NCBI GenBank assembly: GCA_031082205.1
Contig: JAVHLJ010000002.1
Span: 76,557-137,788, forward strand
Direction: 5' to 3'
From: Elusimicrobiales bacterium
GTDB lineage: Bacteria > Elusimicrobiota > Elusimicrobia > Elusimicrobiales > UBA9959
Length of the DNA: 61,232 nt
A program made the translations under genes and the position numbers. Under the pieces are notes generated by a model that saw only the letters and a program-made list of their open reading frames with translations, did not search any database and had not been told where the DNA came from. This document shows positions 11,866 through 61,085 of the stretch, one piece after another (position 1 is the stretch's first letter; the number at the start of each line of letters is the position of its first letter).

Positions 11866-11874
11866 CAGCACGGC

Positions 11875-15255: not shown

Positions 15256-15288
15256 GGCCGGGACGCCTTTATGGAAACTACCGGAACG

Positions 15289-15352
15289 TTTGAAAAAAAT
15301 ATTTTCGCGCGCGAAACAAAAGCGAAATATTATATTATTATCATAATATTCA
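15289..15352. other. AT-rich palindromic leader patch
   Basis: In a GC-rich setting this untranslated stretch is mostly A/T. It contains a perfect 14-base palindrome TTTCGCGCGCGAAA (15303-15316) and an inverted repeat AATATTAT / ATAATATT (15326-15333 and 15343-15350). It lies between the riboswitch terminator and the HEAT gene. No good -35/-10 pair was found in it. Possible regulator site or mRNA structure. The 431-base gap 14981-15411 is otherwise filled by the promoter and riboswitch. Confidence 0.5.
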
Positions 15353-15411
15353 CGCTTTGCCGCGCGGCCGGTCGTTTAAAACGGGCGCTGCAAGGCGGGC
15401 GTGCTTTTCAC

Positions 15412-16086
15412 ATGAGAAAAACGATCACCGCTTCCGCCTTCCTCGCGCTGCTGCTCTCCGCCGCGCCGCTCCGCGCCCAATCATCGCCCGCCGCCGCGCC
15501 GGCTCTTTCCGCCGCGCAGGTCAGGGAGCGCGCCGCACTGCTTAGGGACAAGGACCTCGAAGTCCGCCTGCGCGCCGCTTCGGAGCTGGGCCGCGCGGGC
15601 ACCGCCGCCGCGCGCCGGGCACTGGTAGCGGAACTCGGCCGCGAGAAGAGCCCGTATATCCGCGCCCGTATAGTGGACGCCCTCGGCGAGCGCCCCGATA
15701 AGGACGGGACGGCCGAGCTTGTTAAGATAGCCCGGGGGGACAAGGACGCCGACGCCAGGCAGGCCGCCGTGAAAGCCCTGGCTTTCTCGGCGGACCCCGC
15801 GGCCGCCGCGGAACTGCTGGCCCGGTTCGCCGACGCGGACGAGGAGATGGGCGTCCGCCTGCGGGCCGCCGACTCGCTCACCCGCTACCAGACCGACGCG
15901 GTCTTCGCCGCCTTCACCGCCGCCCTCGACGACGCCGACGGCCGCATAAGGACGCAGGCCGTCGTTTCCCTCTACAACGGCTTCGGCTATGACAGGCCCC
16001 GGGTCCGTCCCTATCTCGAGCGGATGGCGGACGATCCCTCGGCGGGCGGGACGGCGAAACTTTACCTGGAGAGGCTCGGCCGTTAA
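15412..16086 (+). CDS. Secreted HEAT-repeat protein
   Basis: 224 residues from ATG 15412. An in-frame ATG at 15271 lies too close to the riboswitch terminator and would add a non-signal-like extension. The signal peptide is MRKTITASAFLALLLSAAPL, ending RAQ. The rest is four or five HEAT/PBS-lyase-type helical repeats, for example DKDLEVRLRAASELGRAG, SPYIRARIVDALGERPD, DKDADARQAAVKALAFSA and DADGRIRTQAVVSLYNG. No Shine-Dalgarno stands close to the start. It is the first gene controlled by riboswitch 1 and precedes the giant protein gene by only 12 bases, so it may be a periplasmic chaperone or scaffold for the giant protein's export. This is inference from operon position. Confidence 0.8.
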   Translation: MRKTITASAFLALLLSAAPLRAQSSPAAAPALSAAQVRERAALLRDKDLEVRLRAASELGRAGTAAARRALVAELGREKSPYIRARIVDALGERPDKDGTAELVKIARGDKDADARQAAVKALAFSADPAAAAELLARFADADEEMGVRLRAADSLTRYQTDAVFAAFTAALDDADGRIRTQAVVSLYNGFGYDRPRVRPYLERMADDPSAGGTAKLYLERLGR

Positions 16087-49000: not shown

Positions 49001-52000
49001 TGAGCGGCTACGACGCCGACGCCCAGGTCATACGGGTCTGGAAGGACAACGGCAACGGCCTCTTCGACCGCGACCCCGTGACCGGCGGCAACCTGACCGA
49101 CGTCGTGGTTGGCGAGGGGCGGCTGGGCGTCAATGAGCCGGTCGGCCGCGCCACCATCAAGGTGGTGGACCCGGCCCTCAGGGGTCAGCAGTACGTGGTC
49201 GTCAGCGCCACGCCGACGGTCTACTTCGTGACCGTGAGCGTGGACAAGGCCTCCAACTTCTCGCACAACGCGATGACGCCGCCCAACGACGTCTTCGGGC
49301 TCGAGGTGCAGACCGAGGGCAACTTCACATTCGGCCCGGCGGGCTCCGGCCATTCGGCCTATTTCCCCTCCCCGGTGCGCTCCCCCGTCAACGTCGTCAT
49401 GCCCACGATAAACCTGGTGACGCTGGAGCCCGAGGATATCTCGCCCGTGGAACTGACCCAGGCCGACATGAACGTCGGGCTGCTGTCGATGAAGATGCGC
49501 ACCGACCTGACCTCCGCCAGGGTGGAGGCCATACGGCTGGCGCGCACCGGCACCGCCAACGACAGCGACATCGACCTCATCAAGGTCTGGCGGGATTCAA
49601 ACGACAACTGCCTCTTCGACTCGCAGGATACCGCGGTGGACGAGAGCGGCCTGCCCCCGAACCTGATGAGCTACGGCAACGAGTCCTTCGCCGAGGGCTC
49701 GGTCAACGTGGTGCTCAAGAAGCCGATAATCGTGACCACCACGCCGCTCTGCGCTTTCATATCCTACGACGTGTCGCAGTTCGCCGTGATAGGCAGCACC
49801 ATGGGCCTCTTCATAGGCGGCACCGACTACTTCACCATCGGCATCCCCAACGCCATAGTGCTCACCACGGCGCCGCTGCGCACCGCCCCGATAACCGTGA
49901 AGGAGATCCCCAGCGACGTCGTTATGGGCGCCTATGACTCGGCCTACGACCTGCTCAACCAGGGCGGGGTCGGCCAGGCGCAGATCGGGGCCGCCATGCT
50001 GCGGTTCAACCTGACCACCGAGGCCGGCAACGCCCGCTGGTCTTCAATGAAGCTGCAGCGCACCGGCGCCTCCAACGACCCGTCGTCCCCGTTCGGCAAG
50101 AATACCGACGTGAAGTTCATCCATGTCTACCAGGACGCCAACCAGAACGACACGCTGGACCTCAACGATATCAACATCTCCCGCGCGGACACGCGGGTCG
50201 CCGTCCCCGTCGCCAGCTCGGCCACGGTGCCGTTCCTGCTGGTCGTCGAATCCACGGCAGGCTTCCCCGCCGCGGGCAGCCTGTACCTGGCCAACGCCGA
50301 GCTCATGAGGTATACGGGCGTCGGGCTTAGCACGACCACCGGCAAGCCCTATTTCATCGTCTCGGAGCGCGGCCGCAGGCTCGGCGAACTGAATACGTCG
50401 AAGATGGACCATGCCGCGGGCGTCGGGGTGGTCAAGGTGGACCTCTACGACCAGGACAACCCGCTCAATACCCAGGCCCAGATCCACCTGTCCCAGGTCC
50501 AGACGCTCTCGCCGCTGGCCCAGACCTTCTTCGTGGTCTACGACATCGGCGAGACCGCGGTGAAGGCCAACAAGGTGGGCGTCCGCGTCAGCGACCGCTC
50601 GTGGTTCACGGTCAACGCGCCGCACGACGTCTCCCCCAGGATATACATGAACATCTCCCGCACGCTGCCCACGGGCACCTACACGGGAGAGTACCCCTAC
50701 ACCTCGAGCCTGGTGCCGATACGGGCCGTCACTCTGCGCGTCAGCGGCGCCGACATGGCCCCGCGCTCGGCCGAGAGGGACACCAGCAACGTCCACCTGC
50801 TGACGCTGACCCTCAACACCGAGTCCGATTACGTCAACCTGGGCCGCATCAACCTGCGCCAGACCGGCACGATCAGCACCGCGACGGCGAACCTGGGCGA
50901 CGGCGACTTCTCGGACATCTCCATCTGGAAGGACGACGGCGACAGGGTCTTCTCCAGCGTGCGCGACAGGCGCGTAGCGAGGGTGCTCAACTCCTCGGCG
51001 CCGTTCGACGGCGGCGTGAGCCTGGACATACTCGACGGGCAGCTGCCCTACGTCTCGGTGACCACTTCCCCGGTGATACTCTACGTCTCCGGTTCCATCG
51101 GCTCGGCCGACAGGTCCGGCGCCGACACGCTGGGGCATTCCGCCGGCCTGAGCCTGGATTACTTCTTCGAGCTCAAGGGACCCAACGGCCTGGCCCTGGC
51201 GGCCGGCCAGAGCGTCTACGACTCGTTCCCCAAGGCCTCGGGGCAAGTCCTGATCGTGCCCGGCATCATACAGTCCATAGCCGAGTACGGCAAGATATTC
51301 GTAGCCGACAACGGCTACCCAGCCTACGCCATCCTGGACTCCAGCGGCGTAGTGGTGCCCGGGCCCAACGGCAGGCCCCAGGCGGACCCGTCGCGCTGGA
51401 TATACGGCTACACGGATTCCGGCTGCCGCGCCGACGAGCCGCTTATCGACCTCAACGGCGACGGCGTGCCGGACAACTTCGACTTCGCCGGCGCCGGGAA
51501 ATGCGTCAACGTCAGCCTGATAGGCTCGATGACGCCGTCCTATAACCTGGACAATGACCCGAACGGCTTCCTCGATTACGATTTCAACGGCGACGGCGAG
51601 GCGGATTCCATAGAGATGGTGGACGGCAAGCCGGTCTATTCCCTGGGCGGCCTGGGGCCCATTCCTTCCGAAGGGGCCGTGCCCTCCGCCTGGCAGTCGG
51701 CGCTGACCTCGGTAGCGGCGAAGTGGCCGCCGGCCTCCACCCCGGTGGTCTCCTACGAACTGGCCGTCAGCACCAATTACGACAATCCGACCAGCCATTC
51801 CAAGCGGTGGGCCACGGTGGGGGACAATCTCTCCGGCAAGGTCTCGGTGCCGTCGATGATAACCTACGCCGTCGGCCGCCTGCTGGACAAGATAGACGAC
51901 AATACGTCCAGCTTCCGCGTCAACAAGAAGTTCGACAAGAGCCTGACCGGGAAGACCTACTTCGTTTTCGTGGGCAACGAGATCATGGAAGTGACCGCCG

Positions 52001-52884
52001 ACGGGGCGGAGCCGTACACCACCTTCACGATAGTGCGGCGCGCCGTGATGGGCTCCCGCAGGGTCCCGCACAGCCCCAACGAGCCGGTCTCGGGCGGCCT
52101 CGGCGGCCTGGGCGCCTACGTGGTGTCCGTCCGCGGCGTGACCTCCGGCGGACAGTATATTCCCGAGCCCGACGGCTCCTCGCTGGTGGTCATGCGTCCC
52201 GACACCGTGCCCCCGCCCAGGCCGGCCGATCCCGCTCCGGAACTCGAGTCGGGCGACAACTTCAAGTACCTGGTCAAGTGGGCCCGCACCGACGACAGGG
52301 ACGACCGCGAGTCCGGCATAGTCTCCTACGAACTGCAGGAGCGCGAGGGGACCAATCCCGTCTGGCGCACCCTGTCGACCATTCCCTATATCAGGGCGGA
52401 CTTCCTCAGCTACTGGGTCGGGGACCCCCTGGAGAGCCCCGGCGAAACCCCGCGCCCTTCCGGCAGCTACTACACCTACCGCGTGCGCGCCTGGGATAAC
52501 GCGGGCAATTATTCGCCCTGGTCGCAGACTTCCGCGCCGGCGGGCACCACCATAGGGGAGGAGGTCCTCTCCAATGTTTCCAATTACCCCAACCCCGTGG
52601 ACCTGCGCAAGGGAGGCGTGGAGGGCAGGACGATGATCACCTACACCCTGAACTCCGACGCCGAGGTCAGCATAACCATCTACGACCTGCTGGGCTACGT
52701 GGTGCGCGAGTGGAACATAGCCAGCGGCCAGCCCGGCGCGAAGCAGGGCCCGAACTTCCATCCCTGGGACGGCAAGAACGGCCTGGGCGGCATAGTCTCC
52801 AAGGGCGGCTATATAGTCCGGGTCAAGGCCTCGAGCCCCAAGGGCAGCAAGACCATCCTGCGCAAGGTCGGCGTGATACACTAA
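16099..52884 (+). CDS. Giant (12,261 aa) secreted repeat protein with C-terminal FlgD/T9SS-type sorting domain
   Basis: A single uninterrupted frame of 36.8 kb, predicted mass about 1.3 MDa. Residues 1-34 are a signal peptide (AAAALLLFAGLLPAPAGA|DYEW). Residues 35-365 are a unique beta-rich region. Then come 58 Ig-like modules of about 125 residues by my count (17203-39415), sixteen or so longer modules with a PGE...GKSG...AG...D-Y-N pattern (39415-46020), about eight modules with calcium-loop-like DxNxDGxxD motifs (46020-51240), a segment with DLNGDGVPD and DFNGDGEAD, an Fn3-like domain (52200-52560), and a terminal module (residues 12155-12261) with NYPNP, ITIYDLLGYVVREW, WDGKNGLGG and GGYIVRVKA. 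That last fold is shared by FlgD and T9SS type A sorting domains. It is likely a cell-surface adhesin or filament, perhaps for attachment or gliding. Control is by riboswitch 1. Confidence 0.93.
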   Translation: MRLERWMKGMTGRAAKAAAALLLFAGLLPAPAGADYEWGNRIAVYRQVDCGDMWSTVNNNTEFRFTAMQDITGVNEIRMLVSYTVNAAAAYATWEVGVMNSGGTILSSTSWTANMGDANTQVWRSWAIPAFDLSQGGNYRIYARVTGTNAGRRMPRIVAMQAPRGFVPKDDETDSYAGSYYNGSSVGAEPVYMIGNGSVYQGQPYARGLESGSAVTDVLPITLSVKDPNAVGQLFQAPAGGLGLVGLSAYAKAKDSAKDLLFRITSEDGATVYVDTTTFFTGDGSNVFKEWSKSFPGVFLPEGTYRLAFIDLAGGETWFTTADSKVGGSPFDGATYKGTPARYQTSTNRGGSWSNPTVSGDLNFKFIIDDTRPTMQILQPRNNTWRKSLPRIEGTAADNYYINQNNVTLFIKEEGITNRYWTGSSWGSYSTGYEYDYDKWVSTGPASASAGATVNWNYTVPWSHDRKYIIYSRARDSAGNYTQYWSTSTFHYDIYSAGPPEQPDSLAQVPEHNSVINAVPSAISGTAADNSLGGIGNVKWVLWRNTDGAYWMGAWTAGPVPADPGSWPDPNTLSPSGGTPVTWERNTMLPTAGDMTDGATYYVTSVAADRVVDSANNAAPNYEVQRTTVTFWWDVSAPVSRSTMPAQGARYSSLTALHGTAYDNVKIDSLRVRLRRNTDNKYWNDSANEFGITDPEAAWVTLGTGLAQRTTNWMYSDLFAWTGSPATEYQVNVQAKDYLRYETNFSTAVFTYDTQAPSPLVTSPASLGYMTAPLAAGATIQGTVDSDASQVRVRMQNLQDNLYWTGGGWGAETWLTATIYAPGFWRLVVPKTAFASGGKYEVTLEGTDSSIPTPNVGFSAAQRFWYDVDKPTSAVTGLADGSLLAGLSSISGTAADTAPFGPVGTSLDKVRVSIYNDQTGQYFTGSGWGPLTELPVDMDGGALNGGRWEHNWTITPSTGWINNYDYEIRYVAVDKAGNREDHNLLNPNAPKIGFSIDLQPPVSVSTFPANGAVYGAGAWRIYGTASDNKGLDRVELSLKRSTSTDFTAPYSYWNGVFWQDDPGYEVWVSSQNMQNLGVASLNWNYGGVGWTSGRYQLRSRARDDVARWQTALTDVAFTIDMSAPASAVLTPADGGAYNAAGFSSFQGQATDDLSGIPAAGVNIWIRDMGFTDDELPWPTTYWNGTAWQNSASPIPLQATPVNPGAMSTPWTYPKPALADGHRYAVQSWATDIAGNVESPSAVSVFDYDVRHPTATIGNPPHGGAVSSLPEVSGEYVDTFPGSGVPAGAVRVSIRQNFGSQLYWKGSVIGWDGTTEHWLDAAAAEVDVSTETGRQASWKYTDLPAWEDQRVYRVRAKAADAAGNTQESLGDSFIAVSTFTFDASAPQTEIYAPSTVSRPRYDQYGVYTIQGAATAGTAEIDRVEILIYIPYSGTHHYYWSWGARNWTYDTIANDAPYWKDIGVTKAVGPLYWRYEGADMPSYPGNNTYVTGYDAVVRARTSTAERTEVAGAGERWDPTSDYPWSILDTPVHGSIGSGVATMTGRFWPDDESTNPVPKVSIYNKTTARYWDNSMNGGLGGWSASEVWNNAVSGSDLGRFYNFTYNSSSVTWTTGEYVLRSKKDRGTRLEVPHKGSIYIVDVSPPESRVLVPGNNTMHSALPYLNGTAADVGPAGLQTVEAALKRITGGTTYYWSGGTSAWVPTETPVWNGASLSGSSWTYDTSGVAWTYGQLYTGIVRATDKGNNVQTAIATGRNFRIDNIGPVSAVTAPADGGIYAALSTLSGTSYDEYSVPIDGQMRLHRDVNGDDVPDGTYDGSAWQPYDDDLWFAPGSFSLNGTTATLTKTMPDAAWDSGYKYYFYVRSKDNALSGNNQGSASPVSAFWIDKTPPYSTILHPSAAAYNSLTSLYGTAGDALSGADEVRITLYNTSLGQYYDPSANPPWTAGEENAAPWVLAQATVYQTSASWSYAVENSTWTSGARYRLRARARDRVGNLGVALSTATFQFDTDLPVSSVTYPVNGTHLTNAALSVTLAGTAYDYPLIDKSGVNLTRLYFRRGNGDYFTGLGWQTDPYPLNAELPADNWTYSLPDGVFTDGEIFHVYASARDNATNVEAFNLRSTFVYDLTRPTGTITYPYNDGYISQTGRIAGTAYDTPNGLVDKVYVRVKQLTGPKPDHYYRVSDSSWTVEGSPEVWNELPLHGTLSPDGTWWQLNTSPWQSGETYEMNATVKDKAGWYRLGYSTVTAIKADFTAPTSTVTYPSHLSTLEENLTVISGSASDAAPGQLDKVRVSYFCVDGICQNKYWNRDAGAWNSDTELFYDATVLPGDRWEATGASSPTWAQSTEGISFRIFARGVDKAGNEVAKPGTGPGSHIEFTLKTPLPVSDIAVPDENTPHWRPSPSPVLSGTSLYASGVKVRVVDWGPDGLWGSGDEYVWAGSSWVPVGEFAGYVDVSAFNPPNWQWTIPSSAWNGNRTYRVRSMAVSASNETPKTGRDFIIDSSAPVTGITAPSAAYMKNVPALTATVSDLAPGAVSYAYFRVKRQESAEYWNWRASTFTALSGADTDLPAVIDGGIASYTTDYFSAGTAFEDNRAYVARFSAFDRAGNEGAATDRAFTIDRSSPAARIRVPYDLNNGGMRSVTALSGTAADNWSNASVQVAIERWVGGAVYRFNGTGYDTYDDHYWITVDGTNGYLSPSATSWVYAPANLDNYFASGYRHMVLARALDTAGNVQESFTVGVSSLVVKVDKEPPASFLIDPLDSSDGESGRYKASAIGQFPANHIRGTATDGPAGMAAGLQTPQIRLSYLLAGDTYYWTGVSFSSGAAAEASAWQGASRSGSYPVWNWDYITSVVWPAGDREYTVEARGMDDSRLADDTGDGNWGQPPYVSRRFIVDNTPPSVAITTPTELSLNSATNIYGTANADLAGHALTYVRISTGSGAGLRYWDGGTSAWVTSAETWNPAQKLGPTSWYYTVSPSILVEKTTYTVSARALDFAGNYSTVYATRTFLNQRPSDVVLSPYSAAYNSLTSLSGEAFDNTGLTASAVSIFNYTQSQCYDPSLTPPWKTIGCVTDNDAPWVSVPAAIWTTSASWTYAIENSSWTSGASYRVRARSRDAAGNWNVVLATAAFQFDTEIPVSTVTYPADGSHLPLSANPMTIQGTAFDGFSGVNEVRFYLRRSNGDYFDGIGWYADPRQLTGTPPLANWTHYLEGAAAYIDGERYTLSSWARDLAGNEEALTLKSTFVYDISRPTAAITYPYNSGYVSQTGRVTGDSYDKPNGRVANAFVRIKRDSDGRYWSSALGDWTLTGAPEVWNDVLSYGSLSSGGTWWQLNAAPWQSGQSYEVNAYTVDRAGNQQLVFSTAANINADFTAPTSTVTYPVHDSIVQAELPVISGSASDFAPGVLDKVRISYYCVNGSCGGNYWNRSAMAWNSPTEIFYDAAILAGNRWEATGVSTPAWISTLAGVDYRVFAKGVDQAGNEVAKPGAPAAGTSFIKFTLRPPPPDSMITTPSGTPHWKISPAPTIIGTAIYSTTVQLRIVDYGPNLDEKTGGDDLVWNGSAWVSTNVFTGYVGVTNFAAPNWQWTMPGANWTNNRRYRVYSLAKHEPNGIDEQEGDDKEFVIDDTAPSAAVTSPDRAYVPELTQLAASVSDTSPGEIQSAYFRVKRQENAEYWDWKLSTFTPTGTDINLSATVDAGLASYTTDYFQTGRAWETNRSYQVQLFAADKAGNTGSSPVASFTVDRSSPVARITVPRDANSKGIRSITSLLGTALDNWGNSNVEIAVQQLGNPPLWFNGQTFFEPDPYWIPLLGNTSAYLSPSATSWVYAPAGLDTHFTGGTTGTRYLFLARARDTAGNLQDYLEVGVSSAVFSIDKRPPTSSIVFPADHQDGVSGRYKSSNAGKSGTDTRFYGSASDNYYTERNAGVAAGRMRLSYLDGGSTWYWTGAAFDNAVSSEAAWQPISVSGSAPSWNWVYLPDIEWPAGDREYRVESRAMDDSRLSDDTGDGNWENSWTRGVNLRHFIIDDTPPLVLITSPTFDASGALAEIRGTANADIAGFKRAEIKISTSGVDGTRYWTGSGWTASETWITSTIKQGPTSWYYTVPPAMLRDDTVYTAVTRAVDYADNFSTVYSTKMFTYDITPPLVSIAHPQHDATYSRILLSTPIAGGTSSTQISPFTGASTVAVAVSELDGAGNYANCFDGSGFTGCSGPVWLPAQGTAANWTFNDPDLAFISDKQYKYEARAADIAGNMSSPVSVTTKFDLDIPTSTVVSPSAEYVRSLTLISGTASDERYGQRDYEAGLGTYTVKVAIRQIGRDWWNPGENDFTRANPLWYEAAVSTAAATKGDWTYSLPSAMQTAISDWKRRDYLVVTWAYDLALNREFGPAGSDPSNADVPAGVGRVIRYDNVVPIAVSTMPADGGHYNSVPALYGVATDTGVVTTVHVMLKVRGGFNATWKGTYDNAISDWDDTAAKYTRWSTATFNNGAWTIPLPSLQPVNNLRFSVWVRAIDAAGNWQSTPSNAQIDNNQNADGSPAHVFTYDNTIPVTGVTAPSDYALAVATGLITGTSFDEGIESSGVSEVRLRMRRSDGAWWSFNNNNWISATQSDTFGVDGSNPWTRVVAPASQEDGYSYDIYHAARDQAGNNFSGFYSGTSFFSTFTFIADYTAPSSSITFPADNSFIGAAVSINGTADDSVENLRGWSGARSYEAGIAPSGAQVALRKTSGNCPALPPLNQCWWNGSAWSDTASGPLWLTSSFTGASSGTWSYALPGGTVEDGQTYYAVSRVTDIVGNLKSQWTTNYFTGDTTPPDSRATAPTGEVSQVNSISGTARDTAPGLLRETGTVLIALRQISPVINCYDGALNQFVTCPAGAYPNDRLWLSTGTTADPGGQPAAWTWNTSLINWANDSGYDVQALAVDKAGNARPAPGAEIRDLTFTFKSPAADTTITTPDTEFGNYRASSLISVIGSGVNLRASNSVRIHVKRLKEPASWWYEPGGYWVNNDTWTYVGHTAGAWSMGLSGSSVFTVDNATYAISSIGYNAANEAENPPTVRNIIIDNTRPQAAILSPASPYARSLPALDTVTGTAADPGRSELPSLYREGMSHVRVLIKDTFAGTYWNGSAFGALAPESELAADIGELPNWKISTDITPALRDGRNYRVFARPYDKAGNRDDNENTMTQFDVVFDTSPPVSYIGYPGHMQVLRSLSPLAGTASDPAGAWAPNLKSDLGRVTVQIYDEAGVKWWHHGAGAFSVLSSSFNVASGTDTWSYTHPNLEASLETGKYYIMRSSAVDRAGNPQAVVTNAVSSITFVWDRTAPEAFFAVPAEGGRYRPSVLTGVNALSGTASDAPLPGVTDQLNKAQINLSYLHEGDTYYWTGAAFSSWTVTFDGAWQDVLGAASWNYPFDGARWVSDREYTLLARAFDKAEPMGANGGNESAWTRVKFVVDGTPPVSRVSTPTAGSYIQSSLSGISGTSFGGLSGLQSGAAGLRLRAYYTQGVDTWYWRGTAALGWSLNAPVDLPVDFTASASTVTWSYPPVGWEPPVISTNNQVYNFSVSGQDLAGNSGAYAAISVTSDFNYPAITISTPMAGSSAFYGPARTVTELRGQAADSPAGIVLPLRAQLSNISEEGAVKPKWDGSQWAVADSTWLAAAAALPNWTFSSPSWPENKRFQVELTGLDAAGNAVPAGTYTRDFIYDTNRPSSTISGLSAAGFRNPSQIATIAGAAQDWVNFTSTQAYSGLAPDGVEIQIVDPDTNYYTGSGWDGNSVWRKAVFTVTNSISDSKLGQINRTANWSYPKAPDVWPPALVEGSTYTVRVRAMDRSLNLENYVQASFCYDASAPTATVTMPGNFAYKALPLISGTVLEAVSALNPVDGVQVAVQRGDNRYWNGTGWDVAFVPASHWKNATSFGGGNWSHADANLDADFNSLLGLNAALQYRVYVRAKDVTGNISRSDAAPSNPDASFTIDPIIPVSGVVAPSSGAYLNAPIAAMEGTASDWSGGVPSGLNNVRMRLSRLNSGGVRTYYNWTFNSWSSNPPDWTFENVDGALDNWSKAVTPTAFTGANTGDGYRFEIQSEARDNTQPVNGGPNIEVAYATSTFVIDFSTPLVHISSPAHQGFFRVMPSVYGTAADPAGPGGLAGGLVSVEYELIDIDRSPVQYWNFNTLAWQPGQVSSVTAPSGSWAMSALPVNNPLAANSWAVGRSSAAFVLRLKATDRAGNYAAFHLNRSTFTLDIQEPDSAVSVPAVEDGSLQTLAAISGTADDATSGIRRVLLRIQQDTAQSDCVDPANNGQYWNGSAWQAGQAWLPVDSYDSFSKAWSYNSAGVVFKPQCFYVIKSSAADVADNGESTFGSRRFKFTPPPAVTRVLVPGNLRYQKALSVLSGTANPDTKSLALELRRLSDNQYWNFGAQAWQGTAVSTAGLSHTAGNWSYDWNLPPLAHNSSYTLRSIGTNFSDVQELAPVTVQFYYDTQSPDPSVSLPAAAAVYYRSLPGMGGAVSDPPGASPPAAGVNRVWTQLQAANGPHAGEYWNNVQSTFTAVWTQNDNEGSYHLAGSSWSFAFSYSTAALLNRVQYSARVMAADLTYNNGVIEGNQSALSAAVLFNYDISHPTATVASVSGGQVRSAVDIASGTLNEEMVLANVGQQPGVQIAAVRLRIKDNKLNQYWTGAAWSPLPSSYSDAAVHQSSWSYSSLPVWADNGSYTIWAEAEDKAGNIQANFTANGSSVTFVTDKSAPLAGVASPAASSKISSLLALSGTALDPNPPANAGIAGMANIQAQLSYLEGGATYYYDNAVGFSSWTLNDSNSWWSSTEWTAQGPSSGTWYYAPPGLATALVPNRVYRARARARDNALPQSNPADPMANAVTNADIVYDVTPPVSRVVSPAHGSVRRTLASVSGTSLDNLAGISTLGQLEIAIQEVSPGAGHWNGVVPGTFTLASEIFYPLNGGSLGGAYDGLNWSMLSPALSDGYTYRVKIRARDDVTPPNQETVVSSVTFTYDTSAPQAAITAPVGLPDSRGSVKALAQIAGTAYEQFGIRSASVSVQEADTLLYYSLQSSTFSSVSQVWMTAELSGSGPAYTWTLAAPAFQDNRNYNFQVTAEDAAGNVTTPPTPTVMRYDVTAPVGRVLTPADNAFLRSLASVSGTAQDPNSNPSGVAGTQVKVQRASDGNHWNGSIWVSQEAWLGAVAGSPWAKNSQLPPADNFAGLVDGQQYIVQARSYDVAGNTQSVLLGGSSFRFDISSPAAHIELPGHGLRYSSLSSIGGTAGDTFNVTFPRIRIYDIGLNKYWMDGTGSCGGTALPNWVGTECGAFPNVWNLSVSSSSAGGSFSWNYPSSQVTWPDRDNELRVEVRAYDEAGNYGVASSTFSYDRTPPSSRILYPPVSEVLYSSMSHISGTSRDLVSSINDVRIRMWYLSGGATYYWSPTAPHWEPADTGWWSIAGAPGSKLLDNPWSYTNSDFDNPGTIQFAWKEGTHDGLNGKRFHIVTKAIDATGNEEVSYSTRTFVFDNEPPMSRPVVPGPDTAYRELPLISGTSVDGVTTVNSAYISILSQDEPGGAKYFDGSSFINESETWLPVTNLYQSSWTYSNGLLTFADKRHYVVKSSATDSIGNVQSAVGQSRFLYDVTEPVSSVLNPVNGSVYNDNKVVLGNAADPGFTSGINGTGSGVYPSLGWHAGKAEILVFRDTEPYISASGPFLYGSWDDSGFFWNGSTWTPVSAGPVWVQAQYTDALGNWQYSGLVCPSPNTDGTPCWARGDSYASWVRATDNAGVVQTIISQGPKFYIAAPAQSFLVTVSQNPMSAGADVNMTVEAKDGPDGTGNRASAYQGTVNFYIDGVPGGPETMDDNAVLDDIYGLPQQTPFVSTDYGIKTFQFRLRKAAARAMRVEDRDNSAIYGTRNVTVNPTSPDRVQVIADYDPAGQMPAPGTPAGRSGSPRTKPAGSSIPFLLQVTDRYWNLVVSSAASVYVTDSDPNNAAASPDGVSVFTGSTTLNRVFVSADPAGWTVSASGQGLFTNSSNPSSPVPVIANAADRLLAMLPGETRVQGKYSSEPYGKSGVPADQQAGSTFTVTVYGVDAFYNTDPTAVFQVAADIPTDLYDADPPLKNLVAGVTTFAFTPVTASSHTLRARSGSLPSATSSYMTPNPVAVWWGRPVKLHMVPEGMALASGLPPYGSNPSNGGKSGTASALTAGATTQVTVYLTDSYYNVVRGATPFMSVSSNTPIAELRFDNDPNIVGRGLAPSPYQKSLVAGATTFSFVPVTRNQGSGLSVTVRDTGLNLGTSFSTDTVSGLTVNPNTPVALQLLLPSDSGGGEQPAEGTVAGKTGSPGPLTAGTAYTVKVRSVDAYNNLAPDGRQVRLTSNDVYADHPPRQPLASGEAVINNFVPSAATGYLVVNAVDDDTLEPKLSTQTVSGITVNAGAAARMIFVLPTQTLVPGKTSYPYGVTGAISTQTAGNAFTAMLYAADSRYNRVYGVNRAGVPVTSDDPFASSIGIYSMSDGAASVTGVTFRTAGTRVLTASDPNAVLTAAQSGQVPAAPNIPTRLRVLPIGESRVPGSTASGRSGSPDPQQAGVPFNVTVDITDAFWNLVPGASQQVRLVPDDPYAQVVPAGQIVVTSATFSVTPVRSGALYLRAEMLSSPPDWGYSLAEDTSTVVNVAPGVPRRLLVRLPGEEFAPGSATGKSGSPSSSLRAGDTFVVQVGVVDDYFNLVTGRALDVRVNTPTDPYASPVATAAVNVLTGATGSMNVTLRRAATHYLTATDLNTGLSGDPQSSTFTVRAAAPVGLQVVLPGETRLGGSADYPAAGRTLTPSTQTAGAEFFAQVNLVDRFMNRFTELSVGPTVYLVTSDAYDIEPSSQALNNGALQIPLTMVTRNSSAWIKAWPVDAADNRVCSGNTPLGICRNDDAAARGSFKVWASTAARLEVVLPGQALEEGRCNISPPCRDAGISRPGRSGTVLPYAIGGGSLFANVYLTDRFYNRVSELTGAAQDTNPVAVMPEVSILLAQDGKTAPPPPQTLASGAALFSVDPRTSLSSYTVTAATTPSSAASYAVGVSTLVVHPGVVARLSYVLPSTNAVAGQPFSASLYALDAYDNICSTGPNVYVSTAAFVIETQPNPNQQPELLANEVFFSSASAGVRALTDWFTFRKAGVSTLGAQDTFSPAISVSPLVNINVSPGPPTVYKVSPDSDQEVGAGSLSNPGRQSLTAQLTDAYDNNISSAGLPAYLAIAEVSGAQGSFEYYDGLNWQGIGVSTLVYTDSFGRIGVSTQMAYRVSSAAGDWARVWIGTTTITLLNDYIARRQNVTGMLTTAGGTPTRLLYVSSQASAEAGVLEMPGTGAAFTVERRDDFGNVTRQGQTDVYLVLLASHVTVHTGLGRSLGSFGTVGDYGFRNVINDQFVTAVSILPGQSQVSFRYHDRTASYSGVSPQANTAEGGRPGYWHLIAQSGSMQSASHLLRVDPQQITKVAFANPQRTMTAGKTIYQSQNSESFRAELRDMFDNPRVATSTVEVLLSTVARQSSTVNDSFGFSASTILAGGFPPIFASTVSLVTIPLDRYSATFYYIDTTASSVYEVALPTKPIIGLSVPARSEWSGSTQSVRIVPDFTYRVNVRSGAGQTLVAGTTSQMFTLAIEDNYGNPTPVGPGQEDSGTQYVSFVLQSGSAGDVRFSSPGMGPFTAQPGTARLRLGESSTSFYLIDTLMSAPTHQFSVNTVISKGWFPAVASYTVVAAAPHHISFFTPPRRLVAGTTVQYADYALNVTTPTRITVVLKDAYENTTTTGSAVDLAFSGARNSTYGGIDSAQPTDSSNPAWQLINTNPIPRTIFPGESYASIFIWDTAVGTAPVTVQAGIPAAGVTFPAVSQDQYITPNVADYFTLHHGYTLASPLRVLAPGTITLRARDRFGNQAAGDPVNGQYYTGKINMATNTRGSADLRDYIADTTDYTFVPADRGERELQIRDTFVETLRVSVTDYARPSVYGHTSDGGRGKPVASSGDVVLSGMVITPTDMAPQDPLPSSKISIGINKLALYQGDGNIADVPGPVVMLRLTMQTTPAGSPPAYLKSIQVKSSGTLSYSDVTQVGFYADNPYAGQLGMLDVESALGGSPVDFFVTSGTYDSGLGTWRFDDLNVKVSTAVLISNSPKNFFLAVRVSTVAATPRSLALVVDQPSYVVLDSTFVGVAYNNFPLQTSTSPVRNQPATINVSGEDIAAWWQPSVGGVQQALGKYDYVDQGVARAGMLKVKAWTDNFIGTIRSFRIIKTGTGGGSSLLSMRLFLDASGGDPALGDGEFQPSIDKEVTDPSNPPRFNPDDPDQFVLPLLEPRVDGEISRSTRTYFVVYELSPDAVADQTHGARLETAGVSLLDGQMAAFSPINSSTVVVRATADKLLLADVNKSQPNDFTKPTALTQNDRDKAVARLTVQVEGNQGAVVWTGLKLDRWITAAENGGTPVYNKASDVKKISVWYDSTGDGLLQTTGTVRDTEVLLVGGRNRTFPYDALEQPALAADTTLYVKDVQSFFSTDSPFPRAPGRLVINDAQTDPALKEVVYYSGVDNDANAFTGVTRGAEGTAAVAWSSGTVVSGQAALPLIGDGGNLDGQSVYVTPKDYFVTFDIDPLATVDNMANIGLSMRGTDYFAVSPSTKGVSGVNIGVTPPGKSVSLVGRIREYADKVLIKATDTVAGATLQQKAQDQPIIAFTAETDVADAQWRWVMVYASGTPLSDGTAVNDVARVKIWYDADNNSYLGGGDVLVGSGTFGNTIFGPLVARVNFNSPVTLHTEGRALLQGISQRYFVTYDITDSAMPNDAIGNPRYLGAYLRSDSFANTSPTVDDPVKNAFSLPNALSASSVLPFESRVREIISAPSTVTVLAQPVFASPSGGSVNSIRLAQDITTTGSQDAAWAVVSTAGIPSSGYLTVDNEIIYYSATGAGALLFVERGQFGSPSVTHANGSPLGVMSFQGNVNVPLLKLTMTTDGYGVRWESLRLARRQPAPLSGYDADAQVIRVWKDNGNGLFDRDPVTGGNLTDVVVGEGRLGVNEPVGRATIKVVDPALRGQQYVVVSATPTVYFVTVSVDKASNFSHNAMTPPNDVFGLEVQTEGNFTFGPAGSGHSAYFPSPVRSPVNVVMPTINLVTLEPEDISPVELTQADMNVGLLSMKMRTDLTSARVEAIRLARTGTANDSDIDLIKVWRDSNDNCLFDSQDTAVDESGLPPNLMSYGNESFAEGSVNVVLKKPIIVTTTPLCAFISYDVSQFAVIGSTMGLFIGGTDYFTIGIPNAIVLTTAPLRTAPITVKEIPSDVVMGAYDSAYDLLNQGGVGQAQIGAAMLRFNLTTEAGNARWSSMKLQRTGASNDPSSPFGKNTDVKFIHVYQDANQNDTLDLNDINISRADTRVAVPVASSATVPFLLVVESTAGFPAAGSLYLANAELMRYTGVGLSTTTGKPYFIVSERGRRLGELNTSKMDHAAGVGVVKVDLYDQDNPLNTQAQIHLSQVQTLSPLAQTFFVVYDIGETAVKANKVGVRVSDRSWFTVNAPHDVSPRIYMNISRTLPTGTYTGEYPYTSSLVPIRAVTLRVSGADMAPRSAERDTSNVHLLTLTLNTESDYVNLGRINLRQTGTISTATANLGDGDFSDISIWKDDGDRVFSSVRDRRVARVLNSSAPFDGGVSLDILDGQLPYVSVTTSPVILYVSGSIGSADRSGADTLGHSAGLSLDYFFELKGPNGLALAAGQSVYDSFPKASGQVLIVPGIIQSIAEYGKIFVADNGYPAYAILDSSGVVVPGPNGRPQADPSRWIYGYTDSGCRADEPLIDLNGDGVPDNFDFAGAGKCVNVSLIGSMTPSYNLDNDPNGFLDYDFNGDGEADSIEMVDGKPVYSLGGLGPIPSEGAVPSAWQSALTSVAAKWPPASTPVVSYELAVSTNYDNPTSHSKRWATVGDNLSGKVSVPSMITYAVGRLLDKIDDNTSSFRVNKKFDKSLTGKTYFVFVGNEIMEVTADGAEPYTTFTIVRRAVMGSRRVPHSPNEPVSGGLGGLGAYVVSVRGVTSGGQYIPEPDGSSLVVMRPDTVPPPRPADPAPELESGDNFKYLVKWARTDDRDDRESGIVSYELQEREGTNPVWRTLSTIPYIRADFLSYWVGDPLESPGETPRPSGSYYTYRVRAWDNAGNYSPWSQTSAPAGTTIGEEVLSNVSNYPNPVDLRKGGVEGRTMITYTLNSDAEVSITIYDLLGYVVREWNIASGQPGAKQGPNFHPWDGKNGLGGIVSKGGYIVRVKASSPKGSKTILRKVGVIH
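16201..17202 (+). other. Giant protein: N-terminal unique beta-rich region
   Basis: Residues about 35-368 after the signal peptide. Two jelly-roll-like stretches are suggested by alternating strands (for example TWEVGVMNSGGTILSSTSW and DLLFRITSEDGATVYVDTTT), each ending in a YRIYARVTG- or YRLAFIDLAG-type strand. It contains one of the few cysteines of the protein (VDCGDMW). Family not recognised; it could be a ligand-binding head. Confidence 0.45.
21742..25107 (+). repeat. Nine-module block, copy A of an internal segmental duplication
   Basis: Modules 13 to 21 of the Ig-like array. Each aligns in order with modules 22 to 30 in the next block, for example TGTITYPYNDGYISQTGRIA against TAAITYPYNSGYVSQTGRVT, and TPHWRPSPSP against TPHWKISPAP. 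Length about 3,366 bp. Confidence 0.8.
25108..28484 (+). repeat. Nine-module block, copy B of an internal segmental duplication
   Basis: About 3,377 bp, directly following copy A. Order-preserving module matches include FDTEIPVSTVTYP (A: FDTDLPVSSVTYP), ADFTAPTSTVTYP (same in A), VDRSSPVARITVP (A: IDRSSPAARIRVP) and DDSRLSDDTGDGNW (A: DDSRLADDTGDGNW). The copies have clearly diverged at DNA level, so the event is not recent. Confidence 0.8.
39415..46020 (+). other. Giant protein: second zone, PGE/GKSG-type modules
   Basis: About sixteen modules of 110-160 residues with a consensus start such as P-x-x-L-x-V-x-LPGE-x-x-x-PG, a GKSGSP or GRSGSP turn, Q-x-AG-x-x-F, then a strand with VxDxxxN. 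Examples begin LLVRLPGEEFAPGSATGKSG and LRVLPIGESRVPGSTASGRS. This resembles Big_1/filamin-type extended Ig repeats in invasin-like proteins; an exact family name is not claimed. Confidence 0.65.
46021..51240 (+). other. Giant protein: third zone with calcium-loop-like motifs
   Basis: About eight longer modules, each with a strand such as ARVEAIRLARTGTANDSDID followed by a VWRDSNDNCLFDSQD-, VYQDANQNDTLDLND- or WYDADNNSYLGGGD-type loop. The D-x-N-x-[DN]-x-x-x-D spacing resembles EF-hand or dockerin-type calcium loops. Several also have an inserted strand pair including NEIIYYSATG or AELMRYTGVG. Confidence 0.55.
52561..52881 (+). other. Giant protein: C-terminal FlgD-like / T9SS type A-like sorting module
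   Basis: Residues 12155-12261. Signature pieces are NYPNPVDL, MITYTLNSDAEVSITIYDLL, GYVVREW, HPWDGKNGLGG and SKGGYIVRVKAS, ending with a short basic strand. The same pattern marks C-terminal domains recognised by type IX secretion in Bacteroidota, and also FlgD-like Ig domains elsewhere. The PorV-like gene next to it supports a secretion meaning. Confidence 0.75.
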
Positions 52885-54890: not shown

Positions 54891-56864
54891 ATGCGTATAT
54901 ATATGAGGACTCTCCGCGCCATCTCTCTTTCGGCGGCCCTGCTGGCCTGCCCGCTTTTCCCGGCCTCCGGCCAGGAGAAGCCGTCCGCGGCCGACGCCGG
55001 CACCGGCCTCTCGGTCATCGAGAAGCAGGACGCCCTGCGGCGGGAGACCGAGACCAAGATCAAGAAGGAGATACTCGACCCGATATTCGGTGAGGGGAAA
55101 TCTTTCGTTTTCGCCGACGTGGAGCTGGAGATAATCGCCCGCAAGTCCGACCAGAGCCGCGAAGGCGTGGGCGTCATGCAGAAGTACAAGGAGAAGGGCG
55201 GCCAGGACGCTGGCCAGCAGGAATCGGAGTTCCTGCTGCCCGGCATCCCCAAGCCCAAGTCCATAATGGGCGGAAAAAGCGGCCCGCCGGAGGCCGCCAT
55301 CGGCCAGCAGGCCCAGCAGTCCCGGGGCATACAGGAGACCCGCTACGGGGCCGAGACCGAGATAAACCGCTTCCAGGTCACGGTCATACACGACGAGACG
55401 CTCGCTCCCGAGCCGGTGGCGCTCGCCCGCGAGAGGGTGGACGACTTCCTGCTGCCCTACAAGATAAAAGGGCAGGACGCCCCCACGGTCGTTTTCAAGC
55501 CCACCCGGTTCAAGAGCTATAATTACCTGGACGACCTGAAGCGGCCCTCCGTCTACCTGCCGCTTCTTTACGCGCTGCTGTTCCTTCTCCTGCTGCTGTT
55601 CCTTTTCGGGCCGCTCTGGGGCTTCTTCCGCAAGTACATAAAGGCCCTGATGGCCAAGCCCGGCGCCGAGGTCAACATAGAGGACAAGCGCGAGGAGGGG
55701 GGAGCCGGCTCCGGCGACGAGGACGGCAAGCAGGAGACCGAAGGACACCAGAGCATCGACATGAATTTCCTTCAGAAAGAGGAGGAAAAGAAGGAAGACG
55801 AGGACGAACTTATGAAGAAATTCGAGCCGTTCACCTATGTCAACGAGGAGAACCTCAAGCGCCTCATCTACCTCTTCCTGATGCGCAAGGAGGAGCCCTG
55901 GGTCATAGCCATCGTCCTGAGCTACATGAAGCCCGACCTCTCCCGCCAGGCCCTGTCGATGCTGCCCATAGAGGTGCAGTCCAAGGTGGCGCTCGAGGCC
56001 CTGACGGTGCGCCAGGCCACGCGCGAGCAGATCGAGGCCATAGACAAGGATATAAGGGAGAACATCGATTTCGTCATGGGCGGCATCGAGCGCCTCTCCC
56101 GGATGCTCGAGGACGCCGATCCCGCCACCCGCAAGAACATCATAGAGTACCTCAAGACCCAGAAGCCCGACATCTACGAGAAGGTCAAGCGGGTCGTCAT
56201 GACCTTCGAAGACATAGCCGCCTACTCCGACCGCGACCTGCAGACCATAATCCGCGCTCTGTCCAACGAGGTCATAGCCCGCGCCGTGGCCAAGGCCCCG
56301 CCGCAGATAGTGGAGAAGTTCTTCGCCAACATGTCGCAGGGCGCCGTCAGCGCCATCAAGGAGATCATCGACTACTCCGGCGAGCTCTCGCCGGTGCAGA
56401 TAGACGAGGCGCAGTCCAAGGTCCTCGACGCGGTCAAGACGCTGGAAACGGAGGGGAAGATCACGGCCCGCAACCAGCAGTCCCAGGAGGTCTATATCGT
56501 GGACAGCGTGGACATGACATCCTCCTCCGACCGCAAGCGCAAGTTCGACAGCCTCTCGTCCGGCGCTTCAGGCGGCGCCGTGCCCGGTTCCGCCGCGCCC
56601 GCGTCTCCGGAGGCGCAGCAGTACCTGACGGCCGGCGCCGACCTCTACAACCAGGGCCGGGCCGAGGAGTCGCTGCAGTACCTGGAATACGCCGCCTCGC
56701 TGGCCCCCGGCTCGGCCGAGGTGCAGCAGTACCTGGGCGCGGCCTACTACGCCCTGGGTCGCGTGGACGAATCGGTCGCGGCCTACGAGAAATACGCCTC
56801 GCTGAGCGGAGATCCCGCCGCCTCCGAATGGCTGGCTTCGTTCAAGCAGCAGGTGGGCCGGTAG
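54891..56864 (+). CDS. FliF-like / FliG-like / TPR fusion: flagellar-type rotor protein
   Basis: 657 residues; ATG 54903 is an alternative start. A signal peptide ends about PASGQ. Residues about 45-215 resemble the last periplasmic (RBM3/collar) part of FliF: ETKIKKEILDPIFGEGKSFV, then EINRFQVTVIHDE and KGQDAPTVVFKPTRF. One membrane helix is at about 221-245. After an acidic linker, residues about 312-524 match FliG middle and C-terminal domains: NLKRLIYLFLMRKEEPWVIA (EHPQ replaced by EEPW), MTFEDIAAYSDRDLQTIIRA and EKFFANMSQGAVSAIKEIID. Some torque-face charges are kept and some lost. TPRs end the chain. This is a membrane-anchored rotor candidate for the MotAB encoded downstream. Confidence 0.8.
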   Translation: MRIYMRTLRAISLSAALLACPLFPASGQEKPSAADAGTGLSVIEKQDALRRETETKIKKEILDPIFGEGKSFVFADVELEIIARKSDQSREGVGVMQKYKEKGGQDAGQQESEFLLPGIPKPKSIMGGKSGPPEAAIGQQAQQSRGIQETRYGAETEINRFQVTVIHDETLAPEPVALARERVDDFLLPYKIKGQDAPTVVFKPTRFKSYNYLDDLKRPSVYLPLLYALLFLLLLLFLFGPLWGFFRKYIKALMAKPGAEVNIEDKREEGGAGSGDEDGKQETEGHQSIDMNFLQKEEEKKEDEDELMKKFEPFTYVNEENLKRLIYLFLMRKEEPWVIAIVLSYMKPDLSRQALSMLPIEVQSKVALEALTVRQATREQIEAIDKDIRENIDFVMGGIERLSRMLEDADPATRKNIIEYLKTQKPDIYEKVKRVVMTFEDIAAYSDRDLQTIIRALSNEVIARAVAKAPPQIVEKFFANMSQGAVSAIKEIIDYSGELSPVQIDEAQSKVLDAVKTLETEGKITARNQQSQEVYIVDSVDMTSSSDRKRKFDSLSSGASGGAVPGSAAPASPEAQQYLTAGADLYNQGRAEESLQYLEYAASLAPGSAEVQQYLGAAYYALGRVDESVAAYEKYASLSGDPAASEWLASFKQQVGR

Positions 56865-59307: not shown

Positions 59308-59532
59308 ATGATACGCCTTCAAAAGCTCAACGGCACCGAGGTGGTGGTCAACGCCGAGCTCATAGAGAGCGTCGAGGCCGCCCCGGACACCGTGATCAAC
59401 CTGGCGACGGGGAACCGCTTCCTGGTGAAGGATTCGGTGGACGAGGTGGTGGCGAAGGTCATTGAATACAGAAAGAAGGTTTACGCGGAGAAAAAAGCGG
59501 TCAATCCGCTGGAGTATTACGAGAAAAAATAG
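59308..59532 (+). CDS. flbD: FlbD-family flagellar-type protein
   Basis: 74 residues from ATG 59308; an upstream in-frame TTG overlaps the -10 box. MIRLQKLNGTEVVVNAELIE, then SVEAAPDTVINLATGNRFLV and a KDSVDEVVAKVIEYRKK helix match the small FlbD family found beside motA/motB in many flagellar operons. Its biochemical role is not established. Here it is the immediate upstream neighbour of MotA and MotB but no flagellar filament gene is present, which strengthens the view that a motor module is encoded. Confidence 0.88.
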   Translation: MIRLQKLNGTEVVVNAELIESVEAAPDTVINLATGNRFLVKDSVDEVVAKVIEYRKKVYAEKKAVNPLEYYEKK

Positions 59533-59578: not shown

Positions 59579-60364
59579 ATGGACATAGCGACTTTAACCG
59601 GCATAATCATTTTCCTGGGCTTCGTGTTCGGGGCCATCTACCATGGCGGCGGCGTAGAGGGGTTCCTGCCTTTCCTGAACATGGAGGCGGCCCTGATAGT
59701 CATGGGCGGAACTTTCTGCGCCCTGCTGATCAACTTCCCTCTCTCTTCGGTCATCAGCTCCGGCAAGATCCTGAGAAAGGTGCTGACCACCAAGGGCGAG
59801 GATACCTCCAAGCTCGTCTCCACCTTCGTCTCGCTCGCGCAGAAGGCCAAGAAGGAGGGCTTCCTGGCCCTGCAGTCCGACGTGCAGACCATCGACAACG
59901 ATTTCCTCAAGCGCGGGGTGCAGCTGGTCATAGACGGCTCCGATCATGAGTTCATCCGCAATATGCTCGAGACCGAGCTGGATTTTATACGCGAGCGGCA
60001 TAAGGCCGGCCGCGAAATTTTCAACGCCCTGGGCACCTACGCCCCGGCCTTCGGCGTCATCGGCACGGTGCTGGGCATGATCATGATGCTTTCCACGACC
60101 GAGGACGTCGCGGCCGTGCCGCGGCGCATGGCCCTGGCGCTGGCCGCCGCTTTCTACGGCCTGGGTTCCGGCTACTGGCTGTTCCTGCCGATGGCCGGCA
60201 AGCTCAAGCACAGGTCCGAGGAAGAGCTTTTCGTCAAAGAGATCGTCATCCGCGGCGTGCTGCTGCTGCAGAGCGGCGCCACGCCCAGCGTGGTAGAGGC
60301 GAATCTGAAAGCCTACCTCGAGCCCCAGAAGCGCAAGACGGTGACGGCGGAAGCCGCCGCCTGA
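59579..60364 (+). CDS. motA: MotA-like stator subunit (proton channel)
   Basis: 261 residues with GGAGC upstream. Family features are helix 1 (LTGIIIFLGFVFGAI), helix 2 (MEAALIVMGGTFCALLINFP), a cytoplasmic loop with charged KKEGFLALQSD and ETELDFIRERH segments, helix 3 APAFGVIGTVLGMIMMLST with the channel Pro, and helix 4 MALALAAAFYGLGSGYWLFL. It should form the MotA5B2 stator with the next gene and drive a FliG-type rotor. The FliF-FliG fusion 2.7 kb upstream is the obvious partner. It is closer to flagellar MotA than to ExbB/TolQ. Confidence 0.92.
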   Translation: MDIATLTGIIIFLGFVFGAIYHGGGVEGFLPFLNMEAALIVMGGTFCALLINFPLSSVISSGKILRKVLTTKGEDTSKLVSTFVSLAQKAKKEGFLALQSDVQTIDNDFLKRGVQLVIDGSDHEFIRNMLETELDFIRERHKAGREIFNALGTYAPAFGVIGTVLGMIMMLSTTEDVAAVPRRMALALAAAFYGLGSGYWLFLPMAGKLKHRSEEELFVKEIVIRGVLLLQSGATPSVVEANLKAYLEPQKRKTVTAEAAA

Positions 60365-60368
60365 GCTT

Positions 60369-61085
60369 ATGGCCGTAAAAGTCAAGGGCTGGATACGGGA
60401 GGATGATCCGAGGGTGGCGGCGGTCGGCCATCCCGCTCCGCCGTGGATGACCGCCTACGCCGATCTGATGACCGAACTGGTCTGCTTCTTCGTCATTCTC
60501 TACGCCCTTTCGGCCGCCCTGAACAAGAACATGCAGGAGGCCAAGAGCCAGATCGAGGAGATGATGCAGAAGGGCGAGCTGCAGGGGCAGGTGCAGATGG
60601 ACAAGGAAGGGCTTCGCATCACCCTGGAAGAACAGGGCTCGGTAGCCTTCTTCGAGAGCGGCCGTTCCGAGATAACGGAGGAGATGAAGCTCAAGCTGGA
60701 GAAGATCTCCCCGATACTGAAGAATCTTTCCACCAAGCACGATATAGTGGTAGAGGGCCACACCGACGCCGTCCCGATAAGGACGAAGCAGTTCGCGTCC
60801 AACTGGGAACTCTCCACCGCCCGCGCGACCAGCGTGGTCAAGCACCTGCTGGACATAGATTTCGTTCCCAAGAGGTTGTCCGCGGTGGGTTACGGCGAGT
60901 TCCATCCGTCCGTGCCCAACGACAGCCCCGAGAACCGGCAGAAGAACCGCCGCGTAGTGTTCTTCATAAAGAACAACCCCTACCCAGATCCGCCGGGCAT
61001 GGCCGCGGCGCAGACCACGGGCCCGCCGGCCGGGAGCGCGCAGCTGCCGGCCGCGGAGGGAGAAGGGGCCACGGAGAGAATATGA
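60369..61085 (+). CDS. motB: MotB-like stator subunit with OmpA peptidoglycan-binding domain
   Basis: 238 residues, four bases after MotA. The N-terminal membrane helix PPWMTAYADLMTELVCFFVI contains the proton-binding Asp at residue 32, the same number as in E. coli MotB. A plug-like amphipathic stretch follows, then an OmpA-like domain (about 75-205) with VVEGHTDAVPI, NWELSTARATSVVKHLL, RLSAVGYGE and NRRVVFFI. The last 30 residues are Pro/Ala-rich. It is complete and apparently functional. It overlaps the following lipoprotein gene by four bases (ATGA), so further genes of this operon lie beyond the window. Confidence 0.93.
   Translation: MAVKVKGWIREDDPRVAAVGHPAPPWMTAYADLMTELVCFFVILYALSAALNKNMQEAKSQIEEMMQKGELQGQVQMDKEGLRITLEEQGSVAFFESGRSEITEEMKLKLEKISPILKNLSTKHDIVVEGHTDAVPIRTKQFASNWELSTARATSVVKHLLDIDFVPKRLSAVGYGEFHPSVPNDSPENRQKNRRVVFFIKNNPYPDPPGMAAAQTTGPPAGSAQLPAAEGEGATERI

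Follow-up and report, generated by a model that had tools for sequence, protein, structure and literature searches.

A natural FliF-FliG fusion protein as the candidate rotor of a flagellum-independent envelope motor in Elusimicrobiota

What task could be performed by a single protein chain that joins parts of the flagellar MS-ring (FliF) and rotor (FliG), in a phylum described as devoid of flagellar genes (PMC7031533)? The question is raised by an open reading frame with an ATG start (54891-56864, forward strand; 657 amino acids) in the DNA of an Elusimicrobiales bacterium (assembly GCA_031082205.1, contig JAVHLJ010000002.1, positions 76,557 to 137,788), a stretch of 61,232 nucleotides that was analysed as a whole and is hereafter called the window. 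The initial annotation had read the encoded protein as a FliF-like to FliG-like fusion with a TPR tail, and had suspected a simplified or repurposed rotor. We consider that the fusion is probably the rotor of a flagellum-independent, MotAB-driven envelope motor, which would act on a complex of outer-membrane and surface proteins.

By its Pfam and PDB matches, the FliG identity of the C-terminal half is certain. FliG_M (residues 330-393, 1.3e-9) and FliG_C (residues 420-525, 1.4e-23) were both recognized by Pfam, and the best PDB match (phmmer) was the FliG middle and C-terminal domain pair (FliG-MC) of T. maritima (1lkv; residues 312-529, 3.9e-29), in agreement with the FliG relationship that had been proposed for residues 312-524. 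The FliG-C domain of the AlphaFold model superposes on 1qc7 (0.8 A, TMt 0.97; Foldseek) and also fits the FliG fragment in 8ucs, a structure of MotAB with FliG (TMt 0.92). With 98.4 bits against an NCBIfam equivalog fliG cut-off of 226.7 bits, the fusion is a homologue that is not called as an equivalent FliG. Both FliG-N (which binds the FliF tail) and the FliF C-tail are absent: the FliG homology sets in near residue 312, behind a linker that is disordered, and a weak PF14842 match lies below the cut-off and overlaps the FliG middle domain. The TPR stretch (residues about 580-640, Pfam) is short, with 2-3 repeats. The whole order of the chain, as first read (signal peptide, RBM3, membrane helix, FliG-M, FliG-C, TPR), is borne out by Pfam, PDB, family profiles, hydropathy and the model, the signal peptide being a likely one. 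Joining the second transmembrane helix (TM2) of FliF to FliG-MC is mechanically possible, since a Salmonella deletion fusion without FliF-C and FliG-N has a working motor and the strain swims (PMC6445934).

The relationship of the N-terminal domain to FliF became visible at the level of the family. As residues 21-249 alone retrieved only chance glutamate-receptor matches from the PDB (phmmer, single sequence), relatives were collected for profile searches; the examined loci contained 61 distinct fusions of at least 440 amino acids, and in all 61 the N-domain is separated from FliG by a hydrophobic helix. A profile built from 49 non-redundant members was searched against all reading frames of at least 150 amino acids in the fetched DNA (its E-values refer to this small database, of which the PDB search is independent) and matched all four canonical FliFs present: Synergistales (5e-21), G216 (3e-17), E. 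coli (1e-13, residues 233-470) and G032 (2e-6). The next match after family members and FliF fragments came at E=0.9. Against the PDB, a profile of 53 members recovered FliF 6scn (5.7e-10, over RBM3 and TM2), further FliF entries, and SpoIIIAG 5wc3 (4e-4). A profile of TPR-type N-domains from which the membrane helix had been removed matched the FliFs of Synergistales (3e-8) and G216 (5e-5) and reached that of E. coli only at 0.3; the full support for FliF comes with both the paralogues and the helix in the profile. Two relatives, one of them a paralogue in the same genome, exceed the curated Pfam cut-off for YscJ_FliF_C (PF08345). In the AlphaFold model of the N-domain, the check that the initial annotation had proposed (core predicted local distance difference test, pLDDT, >90), the first 18 Foldseek matches in the PDB are all FliF or MS-ring (best E 3.8e-7). 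The FliF relationship claimed for residues 40-215 is thus upheld by profiles and structure, a single sequence being insufficient.

Within the collar insertion, a conserved loop (LPGIPKPKS, residues 116-124; L116, P117, G118 and P120 in 91-98% of rows) occupies the region where FliF has VPGALSNQP. The single transmembrane helix starts at about residue 221 by hydropathy and spans residues 219-255 in the model. RBM1 and RBM2 (PF01514) were found neither in the protein, as had been noted, nor in the genome, and TM1 is likewise missing.

The distribution of flagellar genes was assessed in a sample of 295 Elusimicrobiota genomes (the source genome is 2.7 Mb long and estimated 100% complete). FliG_C is present in 120 of them and MotB_plug in 126; 118 genomes have both, 2 only FliG, 8 only MotB and 167 neither (counts uncorrected for relatedness). 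FlhA, FliM/N (FliMN_C, PF01052) and FliF RBM1/2 (YscJ_FliF) exceeded their cut-offs only in the same three genomes (G032, G216, G246), and FlhA was without a match in 118 of the 120 that bear FliG. In the source genome neither FlhA nor FliM/FliN (PF01052) had a match, in searches that recognized the controls, and none of the genes inspected near the fusions was a flagellin, hook or rod gene (a genome-wide search for these was not made). Since flagellar export, switch and full-length FliF genes are absent from this genome and from 118 of the 120 FliG-bearing ones, the ‘repurposed’ half of the early reading is strengthened; profiles, structure and the survey of the phylum favour a simplified or repurposed rotor as such, whose rotation and ring formation are predicted from homology. 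Genome G216, from the same family (loci L052, L053, L054), carries a complete-looking flagellar and chemotaxis locus with separate FliF, FliG and MotAB, and in addition a fusion operon with its own MotAB (L054). The two systems are therefore distinct, and these loci are a natural control for separating them. One contig scan (no survey of other phyla) returned fusions only from Elusimicrobia, plus one canonical Synergistales FliG. In the open-access literature searched, neither a natural FliF-FliG fusion nor an Elusimicrobiota motor was found, and preprints or subscription journals may contain an earlier report.

The lack of flagellar export and switch genes would also fit a decaying remnant of a lost flagellum, a reading that we regard as very improbable and rejected on dN/dS, synteny and tree. 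The fusion gene is under purifying selection (dN/dS 0.07-0.22 between close relatives), its operon and residues are conserved, and many relatives carry 2-8 FliG copies per genome. In the FliG-domain tree, which broadly matches taxonomy, the TPR-type fusions form one supported group, within which the branching order is broadly that of the families of the phylum; this group includes the G216 fusion and leaves out the flagellar FliGs (placement is unsure for several paralogues and flagellar FliGs, which form long branches). An assembly artefact or a chance joining of two genes, for which we found no point in favour, has a negligible probability and was likewise rejected, as independent assemblies from numerous projects contain the same fusion at 70-93% identity, and divergent families have it too.

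The torque interface was read residue by residue. Alignment confirmed that EEPW replaces EHPQ and that G, E, I and S occupy the positions of E. coli R281, D288, D289 and R297. Across 43 TPR-type fusions, position 281 is G in 39, 288 is E in all, 289 is I or E in 36, and 297 is S or T in 40; from EHPQ and the four charged positions, only the acidic 288 is conserved. Because the altered charged residues are themselves conserved across the family, they do not represent decay. On the stator side, MotA P173 and P222 are kept in 37/37 aligned rows, the R90 equivalent is basic in 22/22 (K 20, R 2), E98 is relaxed (mostly E or Q), and 37 of 40 aligned rows retain MotB D32. The genetic pairs of the flagellar interface are MotA R90 with FliG D289 and MotA E98 with FliG R281 (PMC4030992). 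We read the interface as reduced but maintained, in that the basic MotA 90 and the acidic FliG helix are kept and the other side is relaxed on both partners. Judged from the alignments, the residue changes alone do not show a loss of torque, with 288 acidic in 43/43 and MotA 90 basic.

A motor is thus proposed from observed homology, architecture, partner genes, co-occurrence, absence of flagellar genes and conserved stator chemistry, and several points weigh against it. Rotation, ring assembly and motility in Elusimicrobiota are predictions; Foldseek gave only low TM-scores for the N-domain (0.30-0.36 of query), a probable effect of disorder in the collar insertion; CheW was not found in the source genome, and therefore no chemotactic control is expected. 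The weakest step is the output (PorV barrel, lipoprotein, giant protein), which is tied to the rotor by gene neighbourhood only, and some relatives have other large genes in between. Lastly, the equivalents of R281 and R297 are lost from the torque helix. The disappearance of these two positive charges, together with the several sensor kinases and response regulators beside a second copy of the module (contig C2, below), would suit a non-rotating scaffold or tether, in which an RBM3 ring and FliG organise envelope proteins and MotAB acts as a gated channel or tension sensor. We hold such a scaffold to be improbable, given that the MotA prolines, the basic residue 90, MotB D32 and the acidic FliG 288 are all kept and that FliG and MotB co-occur almost perfectly.

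The genes of the window follow the order giant protein, PorV-like barrel with TPR, FliF-FliG, coiled coil, FlbD, MotA, MotB and lipoprotein (Table 1), and this order is kept across many families of the phylum. Of 24 distinct TPR-type loci, 22 have PorV-TPR, 20 have MotA and 17 have the C-terminus of the giant protein, and several of the misses are loci cut by ends or with extra large genes inserted.

Table 1. Coordinates of the fusion protein, its predicted parts, its operon neighbours and the large proteins inserted in relatives.
Feature	Position	Strand	Evidence or remark
Giant secreted protein, 12,261 amino acids, signal peptide, Ig-like domains, C-terminal FlgD-Ig/T9SS-like (type IX secretion system) domain ending KVGVIH	16099..52884	+	One uninterrupted open reading frame
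PorV/PorQ-family outer-membrane barrel with TPR tail, 536 amino acids	53141..54751	+	NCBIfam PorV_fam 5.8e-31, Pfam TPR
FliF(RBM3)-FliG(MC)-TPR fusion protein, candidate rotor, 657 amino acids	54891..56864	+	Pfam, PDB search, family profiles, Foldseek
Predicted signal peptide, residues about 1-27	54891..54971	+	Hydrophobic N-terminal helix by inspection and in model
FliF RBM3/collar domain, residues about 40-210	55008..55520	+	Family-profile matches, AF2 (AlphaFold) with Foldseek, conservation
Single transmembrane helix, FliF TM2 equivalent, residues about 217-240	55539..55610	+	Hydropathy, model helix 219-255
FliG middle domain, residues about 319-400, EEPW replacing EHPQ	55845..56090	+	Pfam, PDB search, alignment
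FliG C-terminal torque domain, residues about 411-525	56121..56465	+	Pfam, PDB search, alignment, Foldseek
Cytoplasmic TPR tail, residues about 573-655	56607..56855	+	Pfam, model, Foldseek
Proline-rich and coiled-coil-like cytoplasmic protein, 763 amino acids	56961..59252	+	Position conserved
FlbD-family small protein	59308..59532	+	Pfam FlbD 8e-26
MotA stator subunit	59579..60364	+	Pfam 1e-26, NCBIfam MotP/MotA/PomA up to 232 bits, P173/P222 kept
MotB stator subunit, plug and OmpA peptidoglycan-binding domain	60369..61085	+	Pfam, NCBIfam, D32 equivalent kept
Lipoprotein gene start, lipobox LSGC, cut by contig end	61082..61232	+	Relatives about 250 amino acids
Inserted large protein (relative)	L059 5050-9852	-	TPR Pfam-confirmed
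Inserted large protein (relative)	L063 11164-16725	+	TPR Pfam-confirmed
Inserted large protein (relative)	L056 11204-16009	+	Position between fusion and coiled-coil gene

The barrel reaches 108 bits in NF033709 (cut-off 90) and remains below the NCBIfam equivalog cut-off for the PorV of type IX secretion. The lipoprotein of relatives ends in D-(L/I)-F-K-x-F-x-F, and in relatives the giant-protein C-terminus lies directly upstream of the module. Many giant proteins are known from Elusimicrobiota (PMC11573180, PMC12057145). A single KxGVIH tail was found in the genome, and the tail recurs in relatives beside the motor operon; on this one occurrence it was rejected as a general sorting tag. As side observations, a FlbD-family protein sits here in a flagellum-free operon, a HEAT-repeat protein (15271-16086) directly precedes the giant gene, and open reading frames further upstream (10687-12438) resemble Tad-type pilus proteins in a hydrophobic stretch at the N-terminus.

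This neighbourhood bears on a further possibility, namely a secretion motor: instead of moving the cell, it would drive export or display of the giant protein, in the way that GldLM serves type IX secretion. A PorV-like barrel adjoining a giant protein with an FlgD/T9SS-like C-terminal domain, the presence of the giant C-terminus beside the module in most loci, and a tail found once in the genome (as expected of a dedicated client) all speak for it; however, type IX secretion uses GldL/GldM directly, with no FliG rotor, and the SprA-type translocon (PF14349) had no match in the genome, in a search to which no control genome responded. We rate a secretion motor as rather unlikely, and give a tentative preference, short of an even chance, to gliding or adhesion by movement of the giant protein.

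For the envelope motor that we favour, homology suggests the following layout. The RBM3 domains would form a periplasmic ring, each subunit sending a single helix through the inner membrane, and peptidoglycan-anchored MotA5MotB2 units would push the FliG-C ring, as in the flagellum. Rotation would probably be one-way, because the FliM/FliN switch and CheW are absent. In the cytoplasm, the TPR tail and the coiled-coil protein may stand in for FliM/N. Torque could be handed on by the periplasmic ring, perhaps via the LPGxPKP loop, to an assembly at the outer membrane, composed of the PorV-like barrel with its periplasmic TPR and the lipoprotein, and carrying the giant surface protein, a fibre whose movement may allow the cell to glide, to attach to surfaces or to make contact with other cells.

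The source genome encodes a second module on contig C2 (L014, G000:C2:38000-57900), with a 484-amino acid FliF-FliG without TPR and its own MotAB. Its genes run PorV-TPR, histidine kinase, FliF-FliG and coiled-coil kinase, with MotA/MotB on the other strand, accompanied by response regulators and another kinase; a third MotA/ExbB-family gene of the genome lies on C54. Variants were also seen among relatives. In distant families, the fusion is parted from the coiled-coil gene by an inserted gene for a protein of 1,600-1,850 amino acids with C-terminal TPR (Table 1). One genome with complete fusions (G037) additionally has a 370-amino acid FliG-MC-TPR protein without the FliF part (L060 10339-11448, reverse strand), possibly a free FliG ring component. 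Elsewhere (L065 2144-10652), two different FliF-FliG modules stand side by side, each with its own type of MotA/MotB. Apparent fusions of ~1,170 and 1,210 amino acids (G210, G182) were discarded: they come from upstream frames that run without a stop across the PorV gene in GC-rich DNA, and are not longer proteins; the overlong fusions of G163 and G277 are probably the same effect. It is conceivable, although we would not put it at even odds, that a new kind of envelope machine was inherited from early in the phylum, in which flagellar-type stators turn a minimal one-piece FliF-FliG ring that drives giant surface proteins (in gliding, or in predatory or adhesive contact) with no flagellum, and in which paralogous copies within one cell power different surface systems.

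If the fusion does act as a rotor, the flagellar torque core is detachable from export, switch and filament, with MotAB and a FliF-FliG ring working alone, which bears on the evolution of the flagellum. Structural studies of the way in which MotAB drives FliG would gain a rotor that is minimal by nature (a single chain with one membrane helix and fewer charges). The fusion also suggests a possible job for the giant proteins and a candidate motility system in a phylum described as having no flagellar genes.

Several known systems share parts of this machine. The ring-building (RBM) proteins SpoIIIAG and SctJ have an RBM3-like ring domain and differ in having neither a FliG torque domain nor a MotAB partner. 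Type IX secretion and Bacteroidota gliding (GldL-GldM, PorV, SprB) have in common with it a motor of the 5:2-type family, a PorV-family barrel and a surface protein with a T9SS-like C-terminal domain, whereas the stator here is a true MotAB with a FliG rotor partner, and SprA was without a match (no positive control). Myxococcus Agl-Glt gliding likewise uses a MotAB-like motor without a flagellum, along with TPR proteins and outer-membrane barrels; it is not known to have a FliF/FliG rotor. The bacterial flagellar motor has homologous RBM3, TM2, FliG-M and FliG-C, and a homologous stator of MotA and MotB (with plug, D32 and peptidoglycan-binding domain). In contrast to it, FliF RBM1/2, FliG-N, FliM, FliN and FlhA are missing here, the rotor is one chain with a TPR tail, and the output genes encode a PorV-like barrel, a lipoprotein and a giant surface protein. 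Closest are the Salmonella deletion and full-length fusions (PMC6445934, PMC6079021) and the Vibrio fusion construct 8z4d; a join of FliF to FliG-MC without FliF-C/FliG-N comes near to the layout described here, but these are mutants or constructs that retain RBM1/RBM2 and FliM/N within a whole flagellum, whereas the Elusimicrobiota fusion is natural, old in its phylum and flagellum-free.
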